From Candidatus Tectimicrobiota bacterium (GTDB lineage: Bacteria > JACPUC01): a stretch of DNA of 64,000 nucleotides. The DNA lies in contig JACPUC010000019.1 of the NCBI GenBank assembly GCA_016192455.1, forward strand, positions 248,001-312,000, read 5' to 3'. Below are positions 26,725 to 38,016 of the stretch, one piece after another. Position 1 is the first letter of the stretch. Each line of letters begins with the position of its first letter. The notes under the pieces were generated by a model. The model saw only the letters and a program-made list of their open reading frames with translations. It was not told where the DNA came from and did not search any database. Made by a program: the position numbers and the translations under genes.

Positions 26725-27096
26725 CTAGCGGCCATACCTCGCTTTCAACGCCTCGTAGCGCGCGTGCTTCTCGCGGTCAAGTGTTCCCGCGGCGTCGTAG
26801 AGCTTGCTGAACGTGAAGCGCACGACGGGCTGGTCTTCGGCATCGAGGTAGTGAATGCCGTAGCTGATCTTGCCGCCGAGGCAGAAGCTCGGCGCCTCGA
26901 CGAAGCGGACCGATCGCACCGCTTCCCACTGGAAGTGGATGTGCCAGGAGCCGTTCTCTATCGTCGCCCAGCCACCCGCCTCCTCGTACTTCACCTCGTC
27001 CGCGTTGACGAATCCTTCCGAGATGGCGCGGCTGTCACCGATGATACAGCAGATGTCCGGCATTGCCAGCAGATCACGAAGGAGATCCTGTTTCAT
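26725..27096 (-). CDS. ChuX/HutX-like heme-binding-fold protein
   Basis: A 123-residue cytoplasmic protein. From residue 50 on it follows the pattern of the ChuX/HutX/HemS fold: WHIHFQWEAVRSVRFVEAPS, then SYGIHYLDAEDQPVVRF, then a charged ending REKHARYEALKARYG, comparable to the HI...V..IAFV..P and F.NAEGEAMFKI..R segments of E. coli ChuX. ChuX-type proteins bind heme or a related tetrapyrrole. Its ATG overlaps the cbiA stop by four bases, so it is translationally coupled to a cobalamin gene, which suggests a tetrapyrrole-related job. The match is by eye and remote; it could be a different protein of similar fold. Confidence 0.55.
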   Translation of the reverse strand: MKQDLLRDLLAMPDICCIIGDSRAISEGFVNADEVKYEEAGGWATIENGSWHIHFQWEAVRSVRFVEAPSFCLGGKISYGIHYLDAEDQPVVRFTFSKLYDAAGTLDREKHARYEALKARYGR

Positions 27097-28529
27097 AGCG
27101 AGAATCCCTTCCCACGGCCGGCGCAGGAGGCCACGAATCCGTGGGCAAACTGTGGGTTCGAGCTGAAGTGCAGGTGGACATAGCCACCCAGGCAGCGGCC
27201 GATCTGATACCCTTCGGCGCGGGGGGCGGCGCTTCGCTCCTCGCGCCCGCTGCGCAGGCGGTAGGCGCGCGGCACGCTCGCCGGCATGTCGAGCAGCTCG
27301 GAGTAATGGAACTCATGCCCGCGCGCGCGCATCCCCGCCGGCGCCAGGATGGTCGGCGCCGTCTGCTCCACCTCGACGTAGCCGATGGCGCTCAGGCGCG
27401 GCACCATGCGGGTGCGGCCGGGGAAGACGCCCACCATCTCGTGCTCCGCCCCCGCCGCGTCGATGATCGCCTCGCAGAGGTACATGAATCCGCCGCACTC
27501 CGCGTAGATGGGCTGCTGCGCCGCGGCAAATTGTGTGATGGCCAGGCGCATGCCGCCATTGGCCTCCAGGCGCGCCGCGAACACCTCGGGGTAGCCGCCC
27601 CCCAGGTAGAGGCCCTGGAGGCCGGGGGGCAGGGTGGCGTCCCGCAGCGGGCTAAAGAGCACCAGCTCGGCCCCCAGCCGGCGCAGCAACTCCAGGTTCT
27701 CCTCATAGTAGAAGCAGAAGACCTCGTCGAAGGCAACCCCAATTCGGGGCCGAGCCTGGCCCCTGGGCACGGCAGCCCACCGGGGATCGCCATCCGTGCC
27801 GGCCACGTCGGTCGAGGAGCCGGCGGGCGCCGGGGGGTAGCGACGCGCCAGCGCCAGGAGTCGATCGAGGTCCACGTGCGCCTCGACGGCGGCGGCGAGC
27901 CGCGCGAAGAACTCCGGCGGCAGGCTCAGCTCGGCGCTCGTCACCAGCCCGAGGTGGCGTTCCGGCATGCTGATCGCGTCATTCTGGAGGACGTAGCCGA
28001 GCGCCGAGGAGCGACAGCGCGACCGCATCGCCTCGTCGAGGTAGCGGTAGTGTCCTTCACCCCCAACGCGGTTGAAGATGACGCCGGCCAGGGCAAGGTC
28101 TGGATCGAACTGCTCGAAGCCGAGCACCACGGCGGCGCCGCTGCGGGCCATGCTGCCGGCATCGACGACAAGCACCACCGGCGCGCCGAGGCGCTTGGCG
28201 ATCTGCGCCGTGCTCCCCTCCTCGCTCAGGCCGCTGGAACCGTCGAAGAGGCCCATCACCCCCTCGATGAGGCAGACCTCGGCCTCTCTGGAATACCTGG
28301 CGTAGAGCCGGGCAAGGGCTGGCGGCGAGAGCATCCAGCTATCGAGGTTGTGCGAGGGCACGCCGGCCGCGCTGCGGTGGTGGCCGGGATCGATGAAGTC
28401 CGGCCCGGCCTTGAAGGGCTGCACGCGCACCCCTCGTTTGCGGAGCGCCGCCAGCAGACCGAGGGTGATCGTCGTCTTGCCGACGCCGCTGTGGGTCCCC
28501 GCGATGACCAGCGACCCGGAAGCCGCCAC
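27093..28529 (-). CDS. cbiA: Cobyrinate a,c-diamide synthase
   Basis: A 478-residue enzyme that uses ATP and glutamine to amidate the a and c side chains of cobyrinate. The N-terminal dethiobiotin-synthetase-like domain carries the P-loop GTHSGVGKTT (residues 8-17) and FKAGPDFIDPGHH; GVMGLFDG lies near 95. The C-terminal class-I glutaminase-type domain has the nucleophile in YAECGGFMYL near residue 345 and a terminal His in GYVHLHF. The GTG at 28529 is preferred (AAGGGAG six bases upstream) over the ATG-like extension to 28736, which would read back into cbiB. Overlaps the downstream ChuX-like gene by four bases. Confidence 0.93.
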   Translation of the reverse strand: MAASGSLVIAGTHSGVGKTTITLGLLAALRKRGVRVQPFKAGPDFIDPGHHRSAAGVPSHNLDSWMLSPPALARLYARYSREAEVCLIEGVMGLFDGSSGLSEEGSTAQIAKRLGAPVVLVVDAGSMARSGAAVVLGFEQFDPDLALAGVIFNRVGGEGHYRYLDEAMRSRCRSSALGYVLQNDAISMPERHLGLVTSAELSLPPEFFARLAAAVEAHVDLDRLLALARRYPPAPAGSSTDVAGTDGDPRWAAVPRGQARPRIGVAFDEVFCFYYEENLELLRRLGAELVLFSPLRDATLPPGLQGLYLGGGYPEVFAARLEANGGMRLAITQFAAAQQPIYAECGGFMYLCEAIIDAAGAEHEMVGVFPGRTRMVPRLSAIGYVEVEQTAPTILAPAGMRARGHEFHYSELLDMPASVPRAYRLRSGREERSAAPRAEGYQIGRCLGGYVHLHFSSNPQFAHGFVASCAGRGKGFSL

Positions 28530-28575
28530 CGTTGCTCCCTTCCACGCTCGGCCTGGAGGGCCGGGCAGCAGCCCA

Positions 28576-28639
28576 GCCTTGCAGGCCCCAGGCAGGTGGT
28601 GCAGGCTTACCTCCGCGGCTCGGAGACCACCTGCAAGGC
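28576..28639 (-). promoter_or_regulatory. Structured leader between cbiB and cbiA
   Basis: The 150-base gap before cbiA can fold into an outer 10-bp stem (28576-28585 with 28630-28639) or, using some of the same bases, a 9-bp stem (28592-28600 with 28626-28634) capped by a 5-bp hairpin (28611-28615 with 28621-28625). The stems compete, which could make a switch; it is too small for a cobalamin riboswitch. Confidence 0.35.
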
Positions 28640-28680
28640 ACGAGCTGCGCGCACACTCGAAGAGGGAGCGCCCGCCGCTC

Positions 28681-29643
28681 TTACCAGTTTCCCGACCACC
28701 GCGCGAGGAGGAGGCGCAAGAGCACGCCGGCGGCACTGCCGCACGCGGTCATGATGAGGACGAGCCGGTTGGCGGCTCGGATGTCGCTCCGTGCCAACGG
28801 ACGCTCCTGGTCGCCGAGGCTGGGCTTGCAGGAAGGAACTCCCTGATAGGCGCTTGGCCCGCCGAGCCGCACGCCGAGGGCGCCGGCCACGGCGGCCTCG
28901 GGCACGCCGGCGTTGGGGCTCGGGTGGCGGGCATGATCGCGTCGGACGATGCGCCAGGCCGCGGCGCCGCGCCGCAACGAGAACGAGGCGGCAAGGACGA
29001 GGAGCCCGGCGGCGAGCCGCGCCGGCAGGTAGTTTAGCACATCATCGAGGCGCGCCGCAGCCCAACCGAAACGCTCGTACCGCGGGGTGCGGTACCCCAC
29101 CATGGAATCGAGGGTGTTCACCGCTTTGTAGGCGAGCGCCCACGGAGCACCGCCGACCAGGGCATAGCAGATCGGCGCGAGAACCCCGTCCACGCCGTTC
29201 TCCGCAACCGACTCCACCGCCGCCCGTATCACTTCCTGCTCGGAGAGCTGCGCGGCATCCCGTCCGACGATCATCCCCACGGCGGCGCGGGCCGCCTCGA
29301 GGTCGCCGCGCGCCAGGGCCGCTTCGACGCGCAGGCTCTCCTGCCACAGGCTGCGCGCCGCGAAGGTGGTAAAGAGGAGCCAGACCTCGAGCGCCCACGC
29401 GACGGAGGCCCCGAACGCCGCCGCCAGGCGCTGCAGAGCCACCGTCGCCGCAACGGTTCCCCCCACCGTGAGGAGCACGAGAAGGATGCCGGCGGCGCGC
29501 TGCGTGCCGCGGCGGCCGTAGAGGCGCCGCTCCAGGAGCCGGATGAGCCGGCCGAGGCCGCGAACCGGGTGCGGCATCGCCCGGGGATCGCCGAGCAGCG
29601 CATCGAGGAGCAGCGCCGCGAGGAACGCCGAGATGAGCCACAT
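28681..29643 (-). CDS. cbiB: Adenosylcobinamide-phosphate synthase (CobD/CbiB)
   Basis: A 320-residue inner-membrane protein that attaches aminopropanol (or its phosphate) to adenosylcobyric acid. Family segments are clear: LLDALLGDPRAMPHPVRGLG near the N-terminus, ESVAENGVDGVLAPICYALVGGAPWALAYKAVNTLDSM in pieces from residue 143, YRTPRYERFGWAAARLDDVLNYLPARL near 184, and HPSPNAGVPEAAVAGALGV near 240. About five hydrophobic helices are visible. The ATG at 29643 lacks a good ribosome-binding site. It lies between cobD (129 bases upstream) and cbiA on the same strand. Confidence 0.94.
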   Translation of the reverse strand: MWLISAFLAALLLDALLGDPRAMPHPVRGLGRLIRLLERRLYGRRGTQRAAGILLVLLTVGGTVAATVALQRLAAAFGASVAWALEVWLLFTTFAARSLWQESLRVEAALARGDLEAARAAVGMIVGRDAAQLSEQEVIRAAVESVAENGVDGVLAPICYALVGGAPWALAYKAVNTLDSMVGYRTPRYERFGWAAARLDDVLNYLPARLAAGLLVLAASFSLRRGAAAWRIVRRDHARHPSPNAGVPEAAVAGALGVRLGGPSAYQGVPSCKPSLGDQERPLARSDIRAANRLVLIMTACGSAAGVLLRLLLARWSGNW

Positions 29644-29772: not shown

Positions 29773-30891
29773 TCAGGGGGGTGCGGCGCAGCCGTCCTCG
29801 TCGAGGAGGTGCCGCAAGGCCGCCAGCAGCCGCTGGTTGTCGCCCGGCTGGCGCACGGCGATGCGGACGTACCGCTCGCCCAGCCCGCGCACCGTCGTGC
29901 AATCCCGCACCAGCAGCCCCCGGGCCGCCAGGCGGGCGCAAAGCTGGCCGGCGCTGAGGTGGGTCCCCTCGAGTTTCACCAGGAGGAAGTTTGCCTGGCT
30001 CGGCAAGGGGCGCAGGGCGGCGAACGAGCTGAGCTGGGCGAACAGGTTCCGCCGCTCCTCGGCAACGAAGAGCCGCGTCTGCTGCGCAAATCCGTCGGCG
30101 CCGAGCATCGCCAGCCCGGCCACCTGGGCCAGGGTATTGACGGACCAGGGCGGCTGGGCCTCCTGCAAGCGCGCCACCGTGGCCGGCTGCCCGACCAGGT
30201 AGCCGAGCCGCAGCCCGGGGATGGCGTAGAGCTTCGTGAACGAGCGCACCAGGAGGAGCTGGGGGTGCGCCGCCGCCTGCCGGACCAACCGGCTCACCTC
30301 CACGCCGGCGGCAAAATCGGCGAAGACCGCGTCGAGCGCCAGGATGGTGCGCGAGTCCTCGCACGCTTCGAGCACCTCCTGGAGAGCGGCCGGGGAGAGC
30401 ATCGACCCCGTGGGGCTGTGTGGATGACCGAGGAAGAGGAGATCGACCTTGGGGACCTGCCTGACAAGCTCCTGGTGATCGAGGGTAAAGTCCTCCTCGC
30501 GGGCGATGAGGAAGGTGACGGTGGCGCCGACTCGACAGGCGACCGCCTCATACTCACTGAAGGCGGGTACGGGAATGAGGACGCGGCGCGGGCGCAGGGC
30601 CGTGCCGAGCAGATGCAAAAGTTCGCACGAGCCGTTGCCGACGAGAATGGCCTCGGAGCCGACGCCGTACTCTGCCGCGAGACGCTCCCGCAGGCTCTCC
30701 GCCCGCGGTTCGGGGTAGTGCCGCACCAGGCCCGGCGCCTGGGCGAGCACCGTTTCGAGCTGCGCGGGTGGGCCGAGGGGATTGAGGCTGGCACTGAAAT
30801 CGAGGATGGCATCGGGATCGAGAGCCTGCTCCCGCGCGGCACGCCAGATATTGCCGCCATGAACATCCCGCATAGGATCTCGGCGAGGCAT
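29773..30891 (-). CDS. cobD: Threonine-phosphate decarboxylase
   Basis: A 372-residue PLP enzyme of the histidinol-phosphate aminotransferase fold that makes aminopropanol phosphate for the cobalamin nucleotide loop. Seen: HGGNIW near the N-terminus, DFSASLNPLGPP, VGNGSCELLHLL near residue 92, the Asp partner in LALDAVFADF, the PLP-lysine in SFTKLYAIPGLRLGYLVG near residue 219, and YVRIAVRQPGDNQRLL near the end. It could be mistaken for HisC, but the HGGN start and cbiB/cbiA neighbours favour CobD. ATG at 30891 stands three bases after the thioesterase gene; ATG at 30873 is an equally plausible start. Confidence 0.88.
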   Translation of the reverse strand: MPRRDPMRDVHGGNIWRAAREQALDPDAILDFSASLNPLGPPAQLETVLAQAPGLVRHYPEPRAESLRERLAAEYGVGSEAILVGNGSCELLHLLGTALRPRRVLIPVPAFSEYEAVACRVGATVTFLIAREEDFTLDHQELVRQVPKVDLLFLGHPHSPTGSMLSPAALQEVLEACEDSRTILALDAVFADFAAGVEVSRLVRQAAAHPQLLLVRSFTKLYAIPGLRLGYLVGQPATVARLQEAQPPWSVNTLAQVAGLAMLGADGFAQQTRLFVAEERRNLFAQLSSFAALRPLPSQANFLLVKLEGTHLSAGQLCARLAARGLLVRDCTTVRGLGERYVRIAVRQPGDNQRLLAALRHLLDEDGCAAPP

Positions 30892-32268: not shown

Positions 32269-34047
32269 ATGCCCGTTAAGGTTGGCAAGACGGCCGGGTT
32301 CTGCTGGGGCGTGCGGCGCGCCATGGACATCGTGCTGGACGTGGCAAACCTCCAGGAGGACGAGCTCTACACGGTGGGGCCGATCATCCACAACCACCAG
32401 GTCACCGAGATGCTCGCCAGCAAGCGGGTGAGCATCAGGGAGGAGTTCGATGCTTCGTCCCCGGCGACGGCGGTGGTGCGCACGCACGGCATCACCCCCC
32501 AGAAGCGCCGGCTTCTGCAAGAGGAGAGCGTCACCCTCCACGACGCCACCTGCCCGTACGTGCTGCGCATTCATGGGATCATCCGCAAGTACCAGAGCAG
32601 GGGCTGGGATATCGTCATCGTGGGTGATCGCGGCCATGCCGAGGTGAACGGACTCTACGGCACTTCGAATGAGCGGGCCTACATCGTGGAGAGCGAAGCC
32701 GAGGCCGACCGCCTGCCGCCTCTCACACAGGTGTGCATCGTGGCCCAAACGACGCACAACCAGCAGCGCTTCGCGCGCATCGTCGAGCGGGTGCAGAAGA
32801 AGGCGCCAACCTCCGAGGTCTTCAACACCATTTGCGACGACACCGAGGAGCGTCAGAGCGAGCTGGCGGCCCTGTGCGAGGAGGTGGACGCCATGGTCAT
32901 CATCGGCGGCTCGCACAGCGCCAACACGGCCCGCCTGGCGTCCATCGCGCAGGACAGCGGGCGGCCGACGGTGAAGATCGAGACAGAGGCGGATCTCGAT
33001 GCGAGTTGGGTGCGGCGGTATGGGACCATCGGGGTGATGGCCGGCGCCTCGACCCCCACTTGGGTGATCCGCAACATCGTGGATGCCCTCGAAAGCCTCC
33101 AGCAGGCGTCACGGTCCTGGACTTTCCGCGCCCTCCACCGCCTGGCGCGCCTCGCCACCGCCAGTTACGGCGCCAACGCCGTGGGGGCCCTCTGCCTCGC
33201 CGCCGCCATCTCAATCTGGTTGGGAGCGCCGATCAGCGGCCCCAGTCTGGCGCTCGCTTTTTGCCTCATCTTCAGCTTGCTCGTCCTCTCCCACCTCGCG
33301 GAAGGCTACGATCCCGAGTTCGACGATCCGGTGCGGCGCAGCCTCTTCCGGCATCGGCTCGGCCTGCAGGGCGTGGCCGGCGCGGCGGCTGTGGCGGCGC
33401 TCCTCCTCGCCAGCCCGCTCGGCTGGCAGGGCGGCGCCTGGGGGAGCGTGGGCGTCGTCCTCATCCTCTTCGCCCTGGGGCACGTCGGCCATCCCCAGCG
33501 GCGCGGCTTGCGTTCGCTCAGCCGGGGGCGGGCCAAGCGCGCCTGGGGTCTGGTCTACCGTTCCCTCATCCTCGGCAGCGCCTGGTGGTGCGCCGGCAGC
33601 CTCCTTCCCTGGCTGGCCCAGCGGGCGTTGGCGGCCCGGGCAGGGGTGAGCCTTAGCATAGTTCCGGCCACGTCGACAACGTTCGGGCTGGCGTCGCTGG
33701 CGGCCTTCGGCCTGCCGTTCCTCACGGCGCTGCTCCTCGACCTCGGCGATCGGGAGGCGGACCGCATCGGTGGACGTCCCTCCCTGCCGATCCTCCTGGG
33801 TGAGGTGGCGGGTGAACGGCTCCTGCACCTCGGCAATGCGGTGATCCTCGCGGCCACCGCCGCTGGTGTGGCCGCCGGCTCGCTGCCGGCCGCGGCCCTG
33901 GCGGTCATCGCCCCCCTGGCGGCGCTGTCGGCCCTGCGACTGGCGCAGCGGCGCCGTCTCTACTTCTCCCGCAGCACCGAGGAGATGCTGGCTGCCGGAG
34001 TTCTGCCGCTCTTTGCCGCCGCAACCCTCCTGGCCGCCGTTCTATAG
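32269..34047 (+). CDS. ispH: 4-hydroxy-3-methylbut-2-enyl diphosphate reductase fused to a UbiA-like membrane domain
   Basis: 592 residues, about twice a normal IspH. Residues 1-285 are a complete IspH/LytB, the last MEP-pathway enzyme making IPP and DMAPP: the three [4Fe-4S] cysteines are C12 (GFCWGV), C95 (ATCPYV) and C189 (TICDDT); H41, H73, the catalytic Glu125 (GHAEVNG) and GGSHSANT are all present. Residues 300-592 hold eight or so hydrophobic helices with LDLGDREADRIGGRPSLP near 490, a DxxDxxxD motif like the second Asp-rich motif of UbiA prenyltransferases, and a degenerate first motif around GYDPEFDDP (346-354). No stop or frameshift separates the parts. The membrane half could prenylate an aromatic using locally made precursor. 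RBS: AGAGGCAGGAAG. Confidence 0.85.
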   Translation: MPVKVGKTAGFCWGVRRAMDIVLDVANLQEDELYTVGPIIHNHQVTEMLASKRVSIREEFDASSPATAVVRTHGITPQKRRLLQEESVTLHDATCPYVLRIHGIIRKYQSRGWDIVIVGDRGHAEVNGLYGTSNERAYIVESEAEADRLPPLTQVCIVAQTTHNQQRFARIVERVQKKAPTSEVFNTICDDTEERQSELAALCEEVDAMVIIGGSHSANTARLASIAQDSGRPTVKIETEADLDASWVRRYGTIGVMAGASTPTWVIRNIVDALESLQQASRSWTFRALHRLARLATASYGANAVGALCLAAAISIWLGAPISGPSLALAFCLIFSLLVLSHLAEGYDPEFDDPVRRSLFRHRLGLQGVAGAAAVAALLLASPLGWQGGAWGSVGVVLILFALGHVGHPQRRGLRSLSRGRAKRAWGLVYRSLILGSAWWCAGSLLPWLAQRALAARAGVSLSIVPATSTTFGLASLAAFGLPFLTALLLDLGDREADRIGGRPSLPILLGEVAGERLLHLGNAVILAATAAGVAAGSLPAAALAVIAPLAALSALRLAQRRRLYFSRSTEEMLAAGVLPLFAAATLLAAVL

Positions 34048-34340
34048 ACGTCCGGTCCGCCCACGCTTCGGCCACGCCCGGCCTGGAGGAGAGCGCCGCT
34101 TCCACCGCAGACGCGGCGGGCGTCGACGGTTTCCATATCGCCTTTTCACTTGATCCAATAGCCCTGGATGTACGACAATTCGTGGCAGACGATGCTTGAC
34201 CGTGGTACCCGGTGAGCCCGGCGTCGCCGGATGAACCGCGCAGTCGGCAAGGATGCCGAAGATACTTGTGCGCGCCACGTTCTGGTCCCCTGACGAGCTG
34301 TGCCTGGCTCCGCCATCCCCTCCCCTGAGGAGTGCGCCGA

Positions 34341-36485
34341 ATGGCCCGGCTGCGAGCCACTGAAATCCTCCGCGGCTCGATTCTCGTCGAGGGGACGCAG
34401 GCCGGGAACATCCTCTTCGGCGTCCCCCTCGAGGTCGTTAAGCGCTTCCTCCAGCTCGGCTTGTCGGTGCCGCGCATCCTGGTCAAACCCGAACGGGCGC
34501 TGGTTCGCGGCATTCCCCAGTTTGCGGTGGAGTACCCGCTCTACTATAACCTCTTCGTCTTGGGGAACACCGGCAGAGAGAAGCGCCTGCAACTCGTCTG
34601 CGATGCCGCCGACCAGCAGCCGATCTCCGAGGCGCTGCGTCACACCCTGCTGGGGCCGAACGCAGAGGACTATCGGCGGTACGCCCTCGAGCCGCGCATC
34701 GCCCAACAACTCCTGCGTGAAAGCCACTACTTTGCGCTGAAGTCAGCCGCCGGGGTGCCCCTGGGGACCCCCGACCTGGTGCGCTTCCACTGTTACAACG
34801 AGCAGCGCCAAGTGGAGCTGGATGAGGGGGTCATCATCCAGCGCTTGGAGGATCAGGCCTTCCTGATCATCGATCCCCAGGCCGGCGAGCTGACGGTGCA
34901 CCTGGGCTTCGGAACCCAGACCCCTCCCCTGCCGCTCTATGATCCGCAACGCGTCGACGAAGCTCCCACCTTTGGGTACCGGGTGCTGGGGTCCCTGTCG
35001 GGCTTCGATCCGAAGGGCTACACCACCGGGTACCTCCTCTACATCAACGGTGTGCCGGTGCTCGTCGACGGCCCCGCCTGGCTTGACGAGCACCTGCTGC
35101 GCTGGGGCGTGGAGCACAACGAGATCTACGCCCACATCGTCACCCACTGCCACGATGACCATGCCGGCTGCTTCGCCTCGACCGTCATGCGCCAGCGGAA
35201 GATCACCCTCCTGACGACGCGGGAGATCGCCGAATCGCTCGTCGTGAAGCTCCTTGGAAGCGGCGATGGCTTGAGCGCCGAGGATATCCGCACGTTCATC
35301 TCCTTCCAGTACGTTGACGCGGCGCTCGATGCTCGCGCGGCGCCATTCCGCTTCCTGGGCGCCGACTGGCGCTTCCACTACAGCGTCCACTCCATTCCCT
35401 GCATCGGCTTCGAGGTCTCGATCGGCGACGCCAGCCTCTTCATCTCGGGCGACTCCGCCAGCCTCTCACGGCTGCGCGTCATGCGCGACGAGGCCATCCT
35501 CGACGAGCGGCGCTACCGCTACGTCGTTCAGGAGCTCTCCACGCCGCGCACCGTCCGCCTCATCGACGGCGGCGGCGGCGAAATCCACTTCGACCCGCGC
35601 GAGTTCTCTCCCAGCCGTGACCTCTACTTCGGACACGTGAGCTCGGAGTTGCTCGTCACCAGCGGCTACCAGCTTCTGCGCACGGGAGACACCCAGGACC
35701 TCATCGTCGCCGAACGCCACACGGTGGAGACCATCCAGGCGGTGGCTGACGCGCTGGAGCAGTTCAAGGTGCCGCTCGGCGACCCCTGGAAACGCATCCT
35801 CTTCGCGCAGGGGCGGGCGCTGGCCCTGAAGGAGAGCCACCCCGTCGTGGTGCAGGGGGAGGAGGCTGACGACGTCTACTTCGTTCTCAAGGGGCGGGTG
35901 CGCGTCTTCGTCGATGGCGAGCTGCGCGCCGAGATGGGCGCCGGCTGGTTCTTCGGCGAGCAAGGGGTGCTTGGCAACACGGCGCGCAATGCCACCATCA
36001 TCACCGCCTCGAACACCCTCCTCTTCGCCATTCCCGGCCAGATTTTCCGTGAGTTCGTTGACACCCACCAGCTCAGCAGCGCCTTTGAGACCGTCACCGA
36101 CAGGCGGGCCAGCTTCCTCTCGGTGGCGGAACTGCGCGACCTGCCGGCCGAGCGCCAGATTGCGCTGTCGCAGCACGCGACGAAACGTCGCTTTGTGGCC
36201 GGCAGCGTCATCGCCCGAGAAGGCTCTCCCGGCCACGATCTCTTCATCATCACCCACGGCTCGGTGCGCATCGAGCGCAACGGCGAGCTCATCGCCATGG
36301 TGCGCGAGAACCAGCTCGTGGGGGAGCGGGCCGTCTCGAGTTCGACGCGCGTTCGCAATGCGGATATCATTGCCGACGAGGATGTCGAGCTGTTGGCCAT
36401 CAATGGCCAGCAATTCCTCGAGGTGCTCAAAGACTGTCCGCTGGCCGAGTACAAGCTGGCGCTCCTCTATCGCAGCCGCAGCTAG
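34341..36485 (+). CDS. MBL-fold hydrolase with two C-terminal cyclic-nucleotide-binding domains
   Basis: A 714-residue protein of unusual order. An N-terminal region of about 210 residues has no recognised motif. The MBL domain (about 225-450) carries HCHDDHAG near residue 268 with later His/Asp ligands (HSIPCIGFEV, ISGDSAS). Two CNB (cNMP-binding) domains follow, about 505-615 (QGEEADDVYFVLKGRVRVFVDG, WFFGEQGVLG) and 620-714 (REGSPGHDLFIITHGSVRIERNG, NQLVGERAV). Similar proteins are annotated as cAMP/cGMP-dependent phosphodiesterases; whether it hydrolyses cyclic nucleotides or is only controlled by them is not shown. ATG at 34341 has GAGGAG eight bases upstream. It lies between ispH and ubiD on the plus strand. 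Confidence 0.8.
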   Translation: MARLRATEILRGSILVEGTQAGNILFGVPLEVVKRFLQLGLSVPRILVKPERALVRGIPQFAVEYPLYYNLFVLGNTGREKRLQLVCDAADQQPISEALRHTLLGPNAEDYRRYALEPRIAQQLLRESHYFALKSAAGVPLGTPDLVRFHCYNEQRQVELDEGVIIQRLEDQAFLIIDPQAGELTVHLGFGTQTPPLPLYDPQRVDEAPTFGYRVLGSLSGFDPKGYTTGYLLYINGVPVLVDGPAWLDEHLLRWGVEHNEIYAHIVTHCHDDHAGCFASTVMRQRKITLLTTREIAESLVVKLLGSGDGLSAEDIRTFISFQYVDAALDARAAPFRFLGADWRFHYSVHSIPCIGFEVSIGDASLFISGDSASLSRLRVMRDEAILDERRYRYVVQELSTPRTVRLIDGGGGEIHFDPREFSPSRDLYFGHVSSELLVTSGYQLLRTGDTQDLIVAERHTVETIQAVADALEQFKVPLGDPWKRILFAQGRALALKESHPVVVQGEEADDVYFVLKGRVRVFVDGELRAEMGAGWFFGEQGVLGNTARNATIITASNTLLFAIPGQIFREFVDTHQLSSAFETVTDRRASFLSVAELRDLPAERQIALSQHATKRRFVAGSVIAREGSPGHDLFIITHGSVRIERNGELIAMVRENQLVGERAVSSSTRVRNADIIADEDVELLAINGQQFLEVLKDCPLAEYKLALLYRSRS

Positions 36486-36567
36486 GCGTCCGGCCTGCTC
36501 GCCGCGGGCGCTCTCGCGGGTGTCCGCCGGCGCATCCCTGGCCTCAGCTCATGAACGGGGCAGCACC

Positions 36568-38016
36568 ATGGCATTCTACGATCTGCGTGAGTTCATCGAT
36601 GCGGCCCGCAAGCTCGACGACGTCCTCGAGGTGCGCGGGGCGCACTGGGACCTGGAGATCGGCGGCCTCATGGAGGTCTTCGCCGGCCGGGCCAGCTTTC
36701 CGCTTCTCCTCTTCGACGACATTCCCGACTACCCCCGGGGCTGGCGCATCGCGGCGAACTTCGTGAATGATGCGCGGCGCGCGGCGCTCGCCTTGGGGCT
36801 GCCCCCCGATCTGCCGAAGGTGGAGCTGCTGCGGCGCTGGAAGGAGCGCCTGCCGCACGTCCGCCCCATCCCTCCGCGCCAGATCAGCAACGGCCCCCTC
36901 TTCGAGAACGTGCAGACGGGGGAGGATGTCAACGTCCTCGCTTTCCCCGTGCCGCGCTGGCACGAGCTCGACGGCGGGCGCTACATCGGCACGGCCTGCT
37001 GCGTGGTGACGCGCGATCCCGACGAGGGGTGGGTGAACGTCGGCATCTACCGGGTGCAGGTGCACGACGAGCGCACCCTCGGCCTCTACATCTCACCGGG
37101 CCATCACGGGCGCATCATGCGCGAGAAGTACTGGGCCAAGGGGAAGAGCTGCCCGGTGGCCATCAGCTTTGGGCAGGAGCCCGCGATGTGGATGGCCGCG
37201 GGCCACTCCATCGCCTACGGCGCCTCGGAGTACGAGTTCGCCGGCTGGGTGCGCGACGAGCCGGTGGAGATCGTGACCGGCCCGGTCACCGGCCTGCCGC
37301 TGCCGGCCACGGCGGAGATCGCCATCGAAGGCGACGTGCCGCCGCCGAGCGAGGAGGCCCGCGTCGAGGGGCCGTTCGGCGAGTGGCCCGGGTACTACGG
37401 CCACGGTGCCCGGGTTGAGCCGATCGTGCGGCTGCAGGCCTGTTACCACCGCAACGAACCGATCCTCGCCGGGGCGCCGCCGCTGAAGCCGCCGATCTTG
37501 AACTTCGGCATCCCCTTCGGCGCCGCCGCCATCTGGCAGTACCTCGAGAAGGCCGATGTGCCGGATATCCGCGGCGTGTGGTGTTTCGCGGGCGGCAACG
37601 CGCCGGGAGGAGGCGCGCCGTTCCTCGTCGTCTCGCTGACGCAACGTTACAACGGCCACGCCCAGCAGGCGGCGCTGGCCGCCCTCGGCTGCCGGGGCGG
37701 CGCGTACCACGGGCGCTTCGTCGTGGTGGTCGATGACGACATCGACCCGGCGGACCTCAACGAGGTGATCTGGGCCATCTCCACCCGCTGCGACCCGAAG
37801 ACCGCCATGACGATCATCGATGACTGCTGGAGCACGCCCCTCGATCCCGTCATGCATCCCGATAAAAAAGAGGCGGGCGATTTCACCAACTCGCGGGCGA
37901 TCATCAATGCCTGCCGGCCCTATGCCTGGAAGGACCGCTTCCCGCCGGTCAACGTCATCAGCCCCGAGCTGCGCGACAAGCTGACGACGAAGTGGAAGCG
38001 CCTGCTGGAGCGCTAG
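36568..38016 (+). CDS. UbiD family decarboxylase
   Basis: A 482-residue protein of the UbiD family, which use prenylated FMN (made by UbiX) and a divalent metal to decarboxylate aromatic or unsaturated acids reversibly. Seen: WDLEIGGL near the N-terminus, GRYIGTACCVVTRDP and VNVGIYRVQVHD (metal/prFMN region, residues 130-165), the catalytic-Glu motif EGPFGEWPGYYG near 269, NFGIPFGAAAIW, VVVVDDDIDPADLNEVIWAI near 390, and the family ending DPVMHPDK. The frame continues far upstream, but the ATG at 36568 gives normal UbiD length; only a weak GGGG precedes it. No ubiX is in the window. The position after a UbiA-like fusion suggests quinone or prenyl-aromatic metabolism, as inference. Confidence 0.92.
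   Translation: MAFYDLREFIDAARKLDDVLEVRGAHWDLEIGGLMEVFAGRASFPLLLFDDIPDYPRGWRIAANFVNDARRAALALGLPPDLPKVELLRRWKERLPHVRPIPPRQISNGPLFENVQTGEDVNVLAFPVPRWHELDGGRYIGTACCVVTRDPDEGWVNVGIYRVQVHDERTLGLYISPGHHGRIMREKYWAKGKSCPVAISFGQEPAMWMAAGHSIAYGASEYEFAGWVRDEPVEIVTGPVTGLPLPATAEIAIEGDVPPPSEEARVEGPFGEWPGYYGHGARVEPIVRLQACYHRNEPILAGAPPLKPPILNFGIPFGAAAIWQYLEKADVPDIRGVWCFAGGNAPGGGAPFLVVSLTQRYNGHAQQAALAALGCRGGAYHGRFVVVVDDDIDPADLNEVIWAISTRCDPKTAMTIIDDCWSTPLDPVMHPDKKEAGDFTNSRAIINACRPYAWKDRFPPVNVISPELRDKLTTKWKRLLER

Follow-up and report, generated by a model that had tools for sequence, protein, structure and literature searches.

An IspH-UbiA fusion protein of Candidatus Tectimicrobiota with conserved IspH residues and an altered first UbiA aspartate motif

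IspH catalyzes the final step by which bacteria make their isoprenoid precursors, and the MEP pathway is a target for drugs and for bioengineering. Proteins in which IspH is joined to a UbiA domain were named as a Rosetta-stone fusion by Rao et al. in 2015, who described 47 sequences as class PT_UbiA_5, reported two DxxxD sites, found all hosts to be sulfate-reducing anaerobes and proposed a membrane placement together with a coupling of the pathway ends; expression of the intact IspH-UbiA protein was unsuccessful (PMC4746011). A C-terminal extension of similar size is also carried by the IspH-RPS1 fusions of Clostridia and Fusobacteria, in which it consists of S1 repeats. The UbiA fold and the second Asp motif are found in AfUbiA and ApUbiA (4tq3-4tq6, 4od4, 4od5) and in the DGGGP synthase of M. 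jannaschii (6m31, 7bpu), none of which is fused to IspH; AfUbiA also has a complete first motif (PMC4106721). In UBIAD1 with HMG-CoA reductase (8djk) a UbiA-fold protein is bound to an enzyme that acts early in isoprenoid synthesis, in this case as separate chains in the mevalonate pathway of animals.

We analyzed a stretch of 64,000 nucleotides from a Candidatus Tectimicrobiota genome (the window), which encodes a protein with the same domain order as the fusions of Rao et al., a C-terminal domain of UbiA fold and a DxxxD second motif. The original prediction had taken this architecture to be unfamiliar, a premise that fails because it had already been published (PMC4746011); the architecture is not new and the window protein is a somewhat unusual further member of the known IspH-UbiA fusions. 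In contrast to the published fusions with their two DxxxD sites and their exclusively sulfate-reducing, anaerobic hosts, it has no normal first motif and its host carries two oxidases and no dsrA above cut-off. What we add here is a tree that is most simply read as one fusion and one loss, the oxidase-bearing host and a first UbiA motif that is variable whereas the catalytic residues of IspH are invariant. The protein and its parts lie in the window as follows:

32269..34047 (+): ispH-ubiA fusion reading frame, 592 aa (ORF listing, codon-position GC)
32269..33108 (+): IspH domain, residues 1-280; no other LYTB-family gene was detected in the genome (PF02401, TIGR00216, Foldseek)
33115..34044 (+): predicted UbiA-fold membrane domain, about residues 283-592 (AlphaFold2 model, structural alignment, partial PF01040 match)
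33289..33330 (+): position of the first Asp motif, residues 341-354 (SHLAEGYDPEFDDP), with Asn changed to Ser, the first Asp to Glu and the last Asp to Pro (family alignment)
33487..33489 (+): Gly407, aligned to the active-site Tyr139 of AfUbiA (alignment; identity of the site from PMC4106721)
33559..33561 (+): Arg431, at the position of AfUbiA Lys146 (family alignment)
33739..33789 (+): second Asp motif, residues 491-507 (DLGDREADRIGGRPSLP), complete (family alignment)

The frame starts with ATG, ends with TAG and holds 592 codons with zero ambiguous bases, and it runs without interruption from IspH into the roughly 300 helix-rich membrane residues that had been predicted to follow. As the host genome is a draft in 31 contigs, one might suspect that a sequencing or assembly error has fused two adjacent genes. 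However, GC3 stays even across the junction (0.83-0.93 along the whole frame), stops are present in both other frames, and the identical junction is found in 32 other proteins. Thus there is no sign of the deleted stop near residue 285 that would have explained the fusion away, and with 32 independent copies and an even GC3 we reject an assembly or frameshift artefact, which we consider extremely improbable.

The N-terminal half is matched by PF02401 (LYTB) at residues 3-275 over the whole profile (289.8 bits, E 2.4e-86, cut-off 24.5) and by TIGR00216 with 268.8 bits, above the equivalog cut-off of 187.85, and IspH structures are its best Foldseek matches. Unlike in the IspH-RPS1 fusions with their S1 repeats, NF000907 matches the IspH part only. 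Cys12, Cys95, Cys189, Glu125 and the GGSHSANT motif (213-220) are all located where they had been predicted, and C12, C95, E125, C189, H41, H123, S217, N219 and S261 are identical in 31 of the 31 fusions covering the region, the window protein included. By family match, cluster cysteines and glutamate the domain thus has the sequence hallmarks of an HMBPP reductase, and because its catalytic residues are wholly conserved the N-terminal half would be expected to convert HMBPP into IPP and DMAPP via a [4Fe-4S] cluster. A profile search detected this single LYTB locus in the host genome (4.46 Mb, 88% complete).

For the C-terminal half, the UbiA-like membrane domain of the original prediction was borne out by the predicted fold and not by the domain search. 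PF01040 covers residues 440-562 only, which correspond to profile positions 124-235, and with 26.5 bits (29.2 for the domain alone; E 4.6e-6) the match stays below the gathering score of 34.2. A PDB sequence search with the C-domain profile returned DGGGP synthase and chlorophyll synthase only, both over the second half only. The AlphaFold2 model of the C-domain (pLDDT 85, pTM 0.85; full-length model pLDDT 80, pTM 0.75) has ApUbiA 4od4 as its top Foldseek match (E 4e-4), and VIA-align gives a Z of 18.4 both for 4od4 and for AfUbiA 4tq4, the latter with an rmsd of 3.5 over 248 aligned residues. Soluble trans-prenyl synthases are nearly as similar (Z about 16-17), as is to be expected since the two families share their fold (PMC4106721). 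With the Pfam match alone being weak it is the predicted fold that settles the assignment, and according to the model the C-terminal half belongs to the UbiA superfamily. Such a domain would insert in the cytoplasmic membrane and hold IspH at the inner face.

The residues on which UbiA enzymes depend are well described: substitutions at N68, D72, D198, D202 and Tyr139 abolish or strongly cut binding or function in AfUbiA and in MenA of E. coli, with N68A and D72A abolishing GPP binding in AfUbiA, and changes of the Tyr and of the equivalents of N68 and D72 destroying the function of MenA (PMC4106721). At the positions N68/D72/D76/Y139/K146/D198/D202 the window protein shows S341/E345/P349/G407/R431/D494/D498. 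Residues 341-349 read SHLAEGYDP and fit neither NDxxDxxxD nor NxxxDxxxD, whereas the second motif is complete (D494, D498) and the stretch D491xxD494xxxD498R..G502R.SLP is present exactly as it had been noted before. Tyr139, which AfUbiA shares with 97% of UbiA sequences (PMC4106721), is replaced by Gly407 in an alignment that is uncertain around residues 400-430, where the model has a low pLDDT at 409-426. The Asn-to-Ser change at S341 is the same as in human UBIAD1 N102S, which affects the residue homologous to AfUbiA N68 (PMC4106721), blunts activity and reduces the affinity for GGPP (PMC9314443). A Glu at the Asp72 position of motif I also occurs in the heme O synthase of the host (NQYLERDLD). 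Arg at the second position of motif I was considered as a mark of degeneration and dropped; the genome's own MqnP-like UbiA reads NRLFDAEID.

We surveyed these positions in 33 fusions including the window protein, using AfUbiA numbering (PMC4106721). Position 202 is Asp in all 33, position 146 is Lys in 30 and Arg in two, position 198 is Asp in 23 and Glu in seven, and Tyr139 is kept in 24. At the first motif, Asn68 is found in 16 fusions and Tyr in its place in 13, position 72 is divided between Asp (15) and Glu (13), and nine have Asp or Glu at position 76. The set of N68, D/E72, D198 and D202 is complete in 10/33 and incomplete in the window protein; a near-complete site is present in the fusions L007, L033, L035 and L055-L060. 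Across the fusions the catalytic residues of IspH are invariant, whereas the first UbiA Asp motif varies.

The 32 other proteins with IspH followed by the C-domain belong to several phylum-level groups and comprise five draft genomes (L007-L010, L027) and 27 further sequences. With one genome taken per family, 6 of the 59 sampled genomes carry the fusion, the genome of the window included, and in the phylum-level groups of the other five carriers it is found in 3/3, 1/1, 7/7, 1/1 and 15/17 examined genomes. The host's own phylum-level group is represented by a single genome in the comparison set, so that almost any gene family of the host is sparsely sampled. A tree of 61 IspH domains (30 fused, 31 unfused) shows two label changes compared with about 21 in shuffles and would fit most simply with one old fusion plus one loss, the direction depending on the root of the tree. 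The loss would be located in a Desulfobulbaceae-like clade nested among the fusions, and at the unfused ispH loci of this clade a search with the C-domain profile did not find a split-off C-domain. The shared C-domain profile and the IspH tree point to common descent of the window protein with the other fusions, its own fork being weakly supported. The host has two COX1-family heme-copper oxidases, and dsrA gave no match above cut-off in its 88% complete genome; judged from this incomplete gene content it is probably an oxygen-respiring organism rather than a sulfate reducer. Thus, sulfate-reducing anaerobes are not the only hosts of the fusion.

What the membrane half does can be read in different ways. 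Of the four side chains that coordinate Mg, two are altered in the window protein, as is the active-site Tyr, and its membrane half is therefore probably a weak or dead prenyltransferase; a prenyl diphosphate could still be held by the second Asp motif, which is kept, and by a basic residue. An altered site with a kept second motif favors a role as membrane tether in which ligand binding is residual at best, and we give roughly even weight to the reading that the sole detected IspH of this genome carries, from an old fusion, a UbiA-fold domain which is more likely a tether than part of a two-reaction enzyme. The clade that retains IspH without the UbiA domain is in line with such a tether, as are three further, ordinary UbiA-family genes in the genome (an MqnP/UbiA-like prenyltransferase, heme O synthase and one more). 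However, the replacement of Asp72 by Glu and of Lys146 by Arg is conservative, and the region of motif I is dense in acidic residues (E345, D348, E350, D352 and D353) that could rebuild a Mg site. Moreover, part of the family may be active given the near-complete sites in some fusions, and the strict retention of Asp202 (33/33) and Lys/Arg146 (32/33) is left unexplained by a mere tether.

A second reading, proposed by Rao et al. (PMC4746011) and in the original prediction, is that the protein is two enzymes in one, with IspH giving C5 units and the UbiA domain being an active prenyltransferase; a local prenyl synthase would couple them. In any case the two halves would need a separate polyprenyl synthase to connect their reactions, and two PF00348 prenyl synthase genes are present elsewhere in the host genome. 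The complete second Asp motif, the acidic E345 at the first one, the relatives that retain nearly all active-site residues (L033, L035, L055-L060) and a UbiA fold that persists over wide divergence agree with it, and an active transferase is possible above all in L007, L033, L035 and L055-L060, as judged from their residues. For the window protein we find it rather doubtful, considering the change of Asn to Ser and of Tyr to Gly, the loss of the last motif I Asp, the lack of a conserved neighbor gene naming an acceptor at the five fusion loci compared and the failed expression of the intact protein by Rao et al. (PMC4746011). Thus, of the original idea that one polypeptide joins the two ends of a pathway the fusion itself stands, but catalysis of both steps is doubtful here, as only the second motif is complete and both the first Asp motif and the near-universal Tyr are altered. 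Since the strictly kept D202 and K/R146 lie on the diphosphate side, there is also room for ligand binding, and the UbiA domain might bind a prenyl diphosphate and feedback-regulate IspH. It would then be the bacterial and covalently linked parallel to UBIAD1, which senses GGPP and is bound to an enzyme from early in the isoprenoid pathway (PMC9314443). It would fit that conservation is strongest on the diphosphate side, the Tyr and Asn positions close to the scissile bond being variable, and that 8djk is among the structural matches of the C-domain (Z 16.9). Yet this is an argument from analogy, the likeness to UBIAD1 with HMG-CoA reductase being one of working principle and not of membership, and given the loss of GPP binding in the AfUbiA mutants N68A and D72A, a protein with an eroded motif I should bind less well too; we regard a sensor as unlikely. 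With similarly low confidence we suggest that in several lineages the UbiA half may have given up prenyl transfer and now serve the MEP pathway as a prenyl-diphosphate-binding domain for regulation or anchoring, which would be by analogy the bacterial counterpart of UBIAD1 with HMG-CoA reductase.

Whichever reading applies, the residue survey sharpens the Rosetta-stone proposal to whether the UbiA half is an enzyme at all, and it indicates pairs for comparison, namely a near-complete site (L033, L035, L055-L060) versus the eroded site of the window protein. If it is true that the eroded form binds prenyl diphosphates and alters IspH activity, the fusion would provide feedback control at the point where the MEP pathway ends.

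We also looked at the neighboring genes. The five fusion loci L007-L010 and L027 have nothing obvious in common around the fusion, so that the neighborhood does not help in naming an acceptor and this approach was given up. In the window, the next gene downstream (34332-36485, +) encodes about 700 aa in which two cNMP-binding domains at the C-terminal end (PF00027, E 2e-33) are oddly combined with a weak metallo-beta-lactamase-like region that contains HCHDDHAG. It is followed on the same strand as the fusion by a gene for a UbiD-family decarboxylase (PF01977, ~36565-38016, +), for which the nearest NCBIfam model is phenylphosphate carboxylase beta, below cut-off. A partnership of this UbiD with the fusion via prenylated FMN was considered and dropped, as UbiD lies beside the fusion in no relative. 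Upstream and on the opposite strand are cobalamin-type genes (28681-29643 and 27093-28736, -), namely CobD/CbiB (PF03186) and a protein that by its sequence resembles cobyrinate a,c-diamide synthase; an aminotransferase gene lies nearby (29773-30891, -). Among the relatives, the fusion of genome G063 (L055:1498-3557, -) is spread over two overlapping frames, so that most of IspH and the C-domain are read in different frames, a frameshift that is either real or a sequencing error. At another locus (L043:721-2325) a CMP-kinase-like domain is fused ahead of IspH in a protein of 535 aa, which resembles CMP-IspH, one of the types in the list of Rao et al. from 2015 (PMC4746011).
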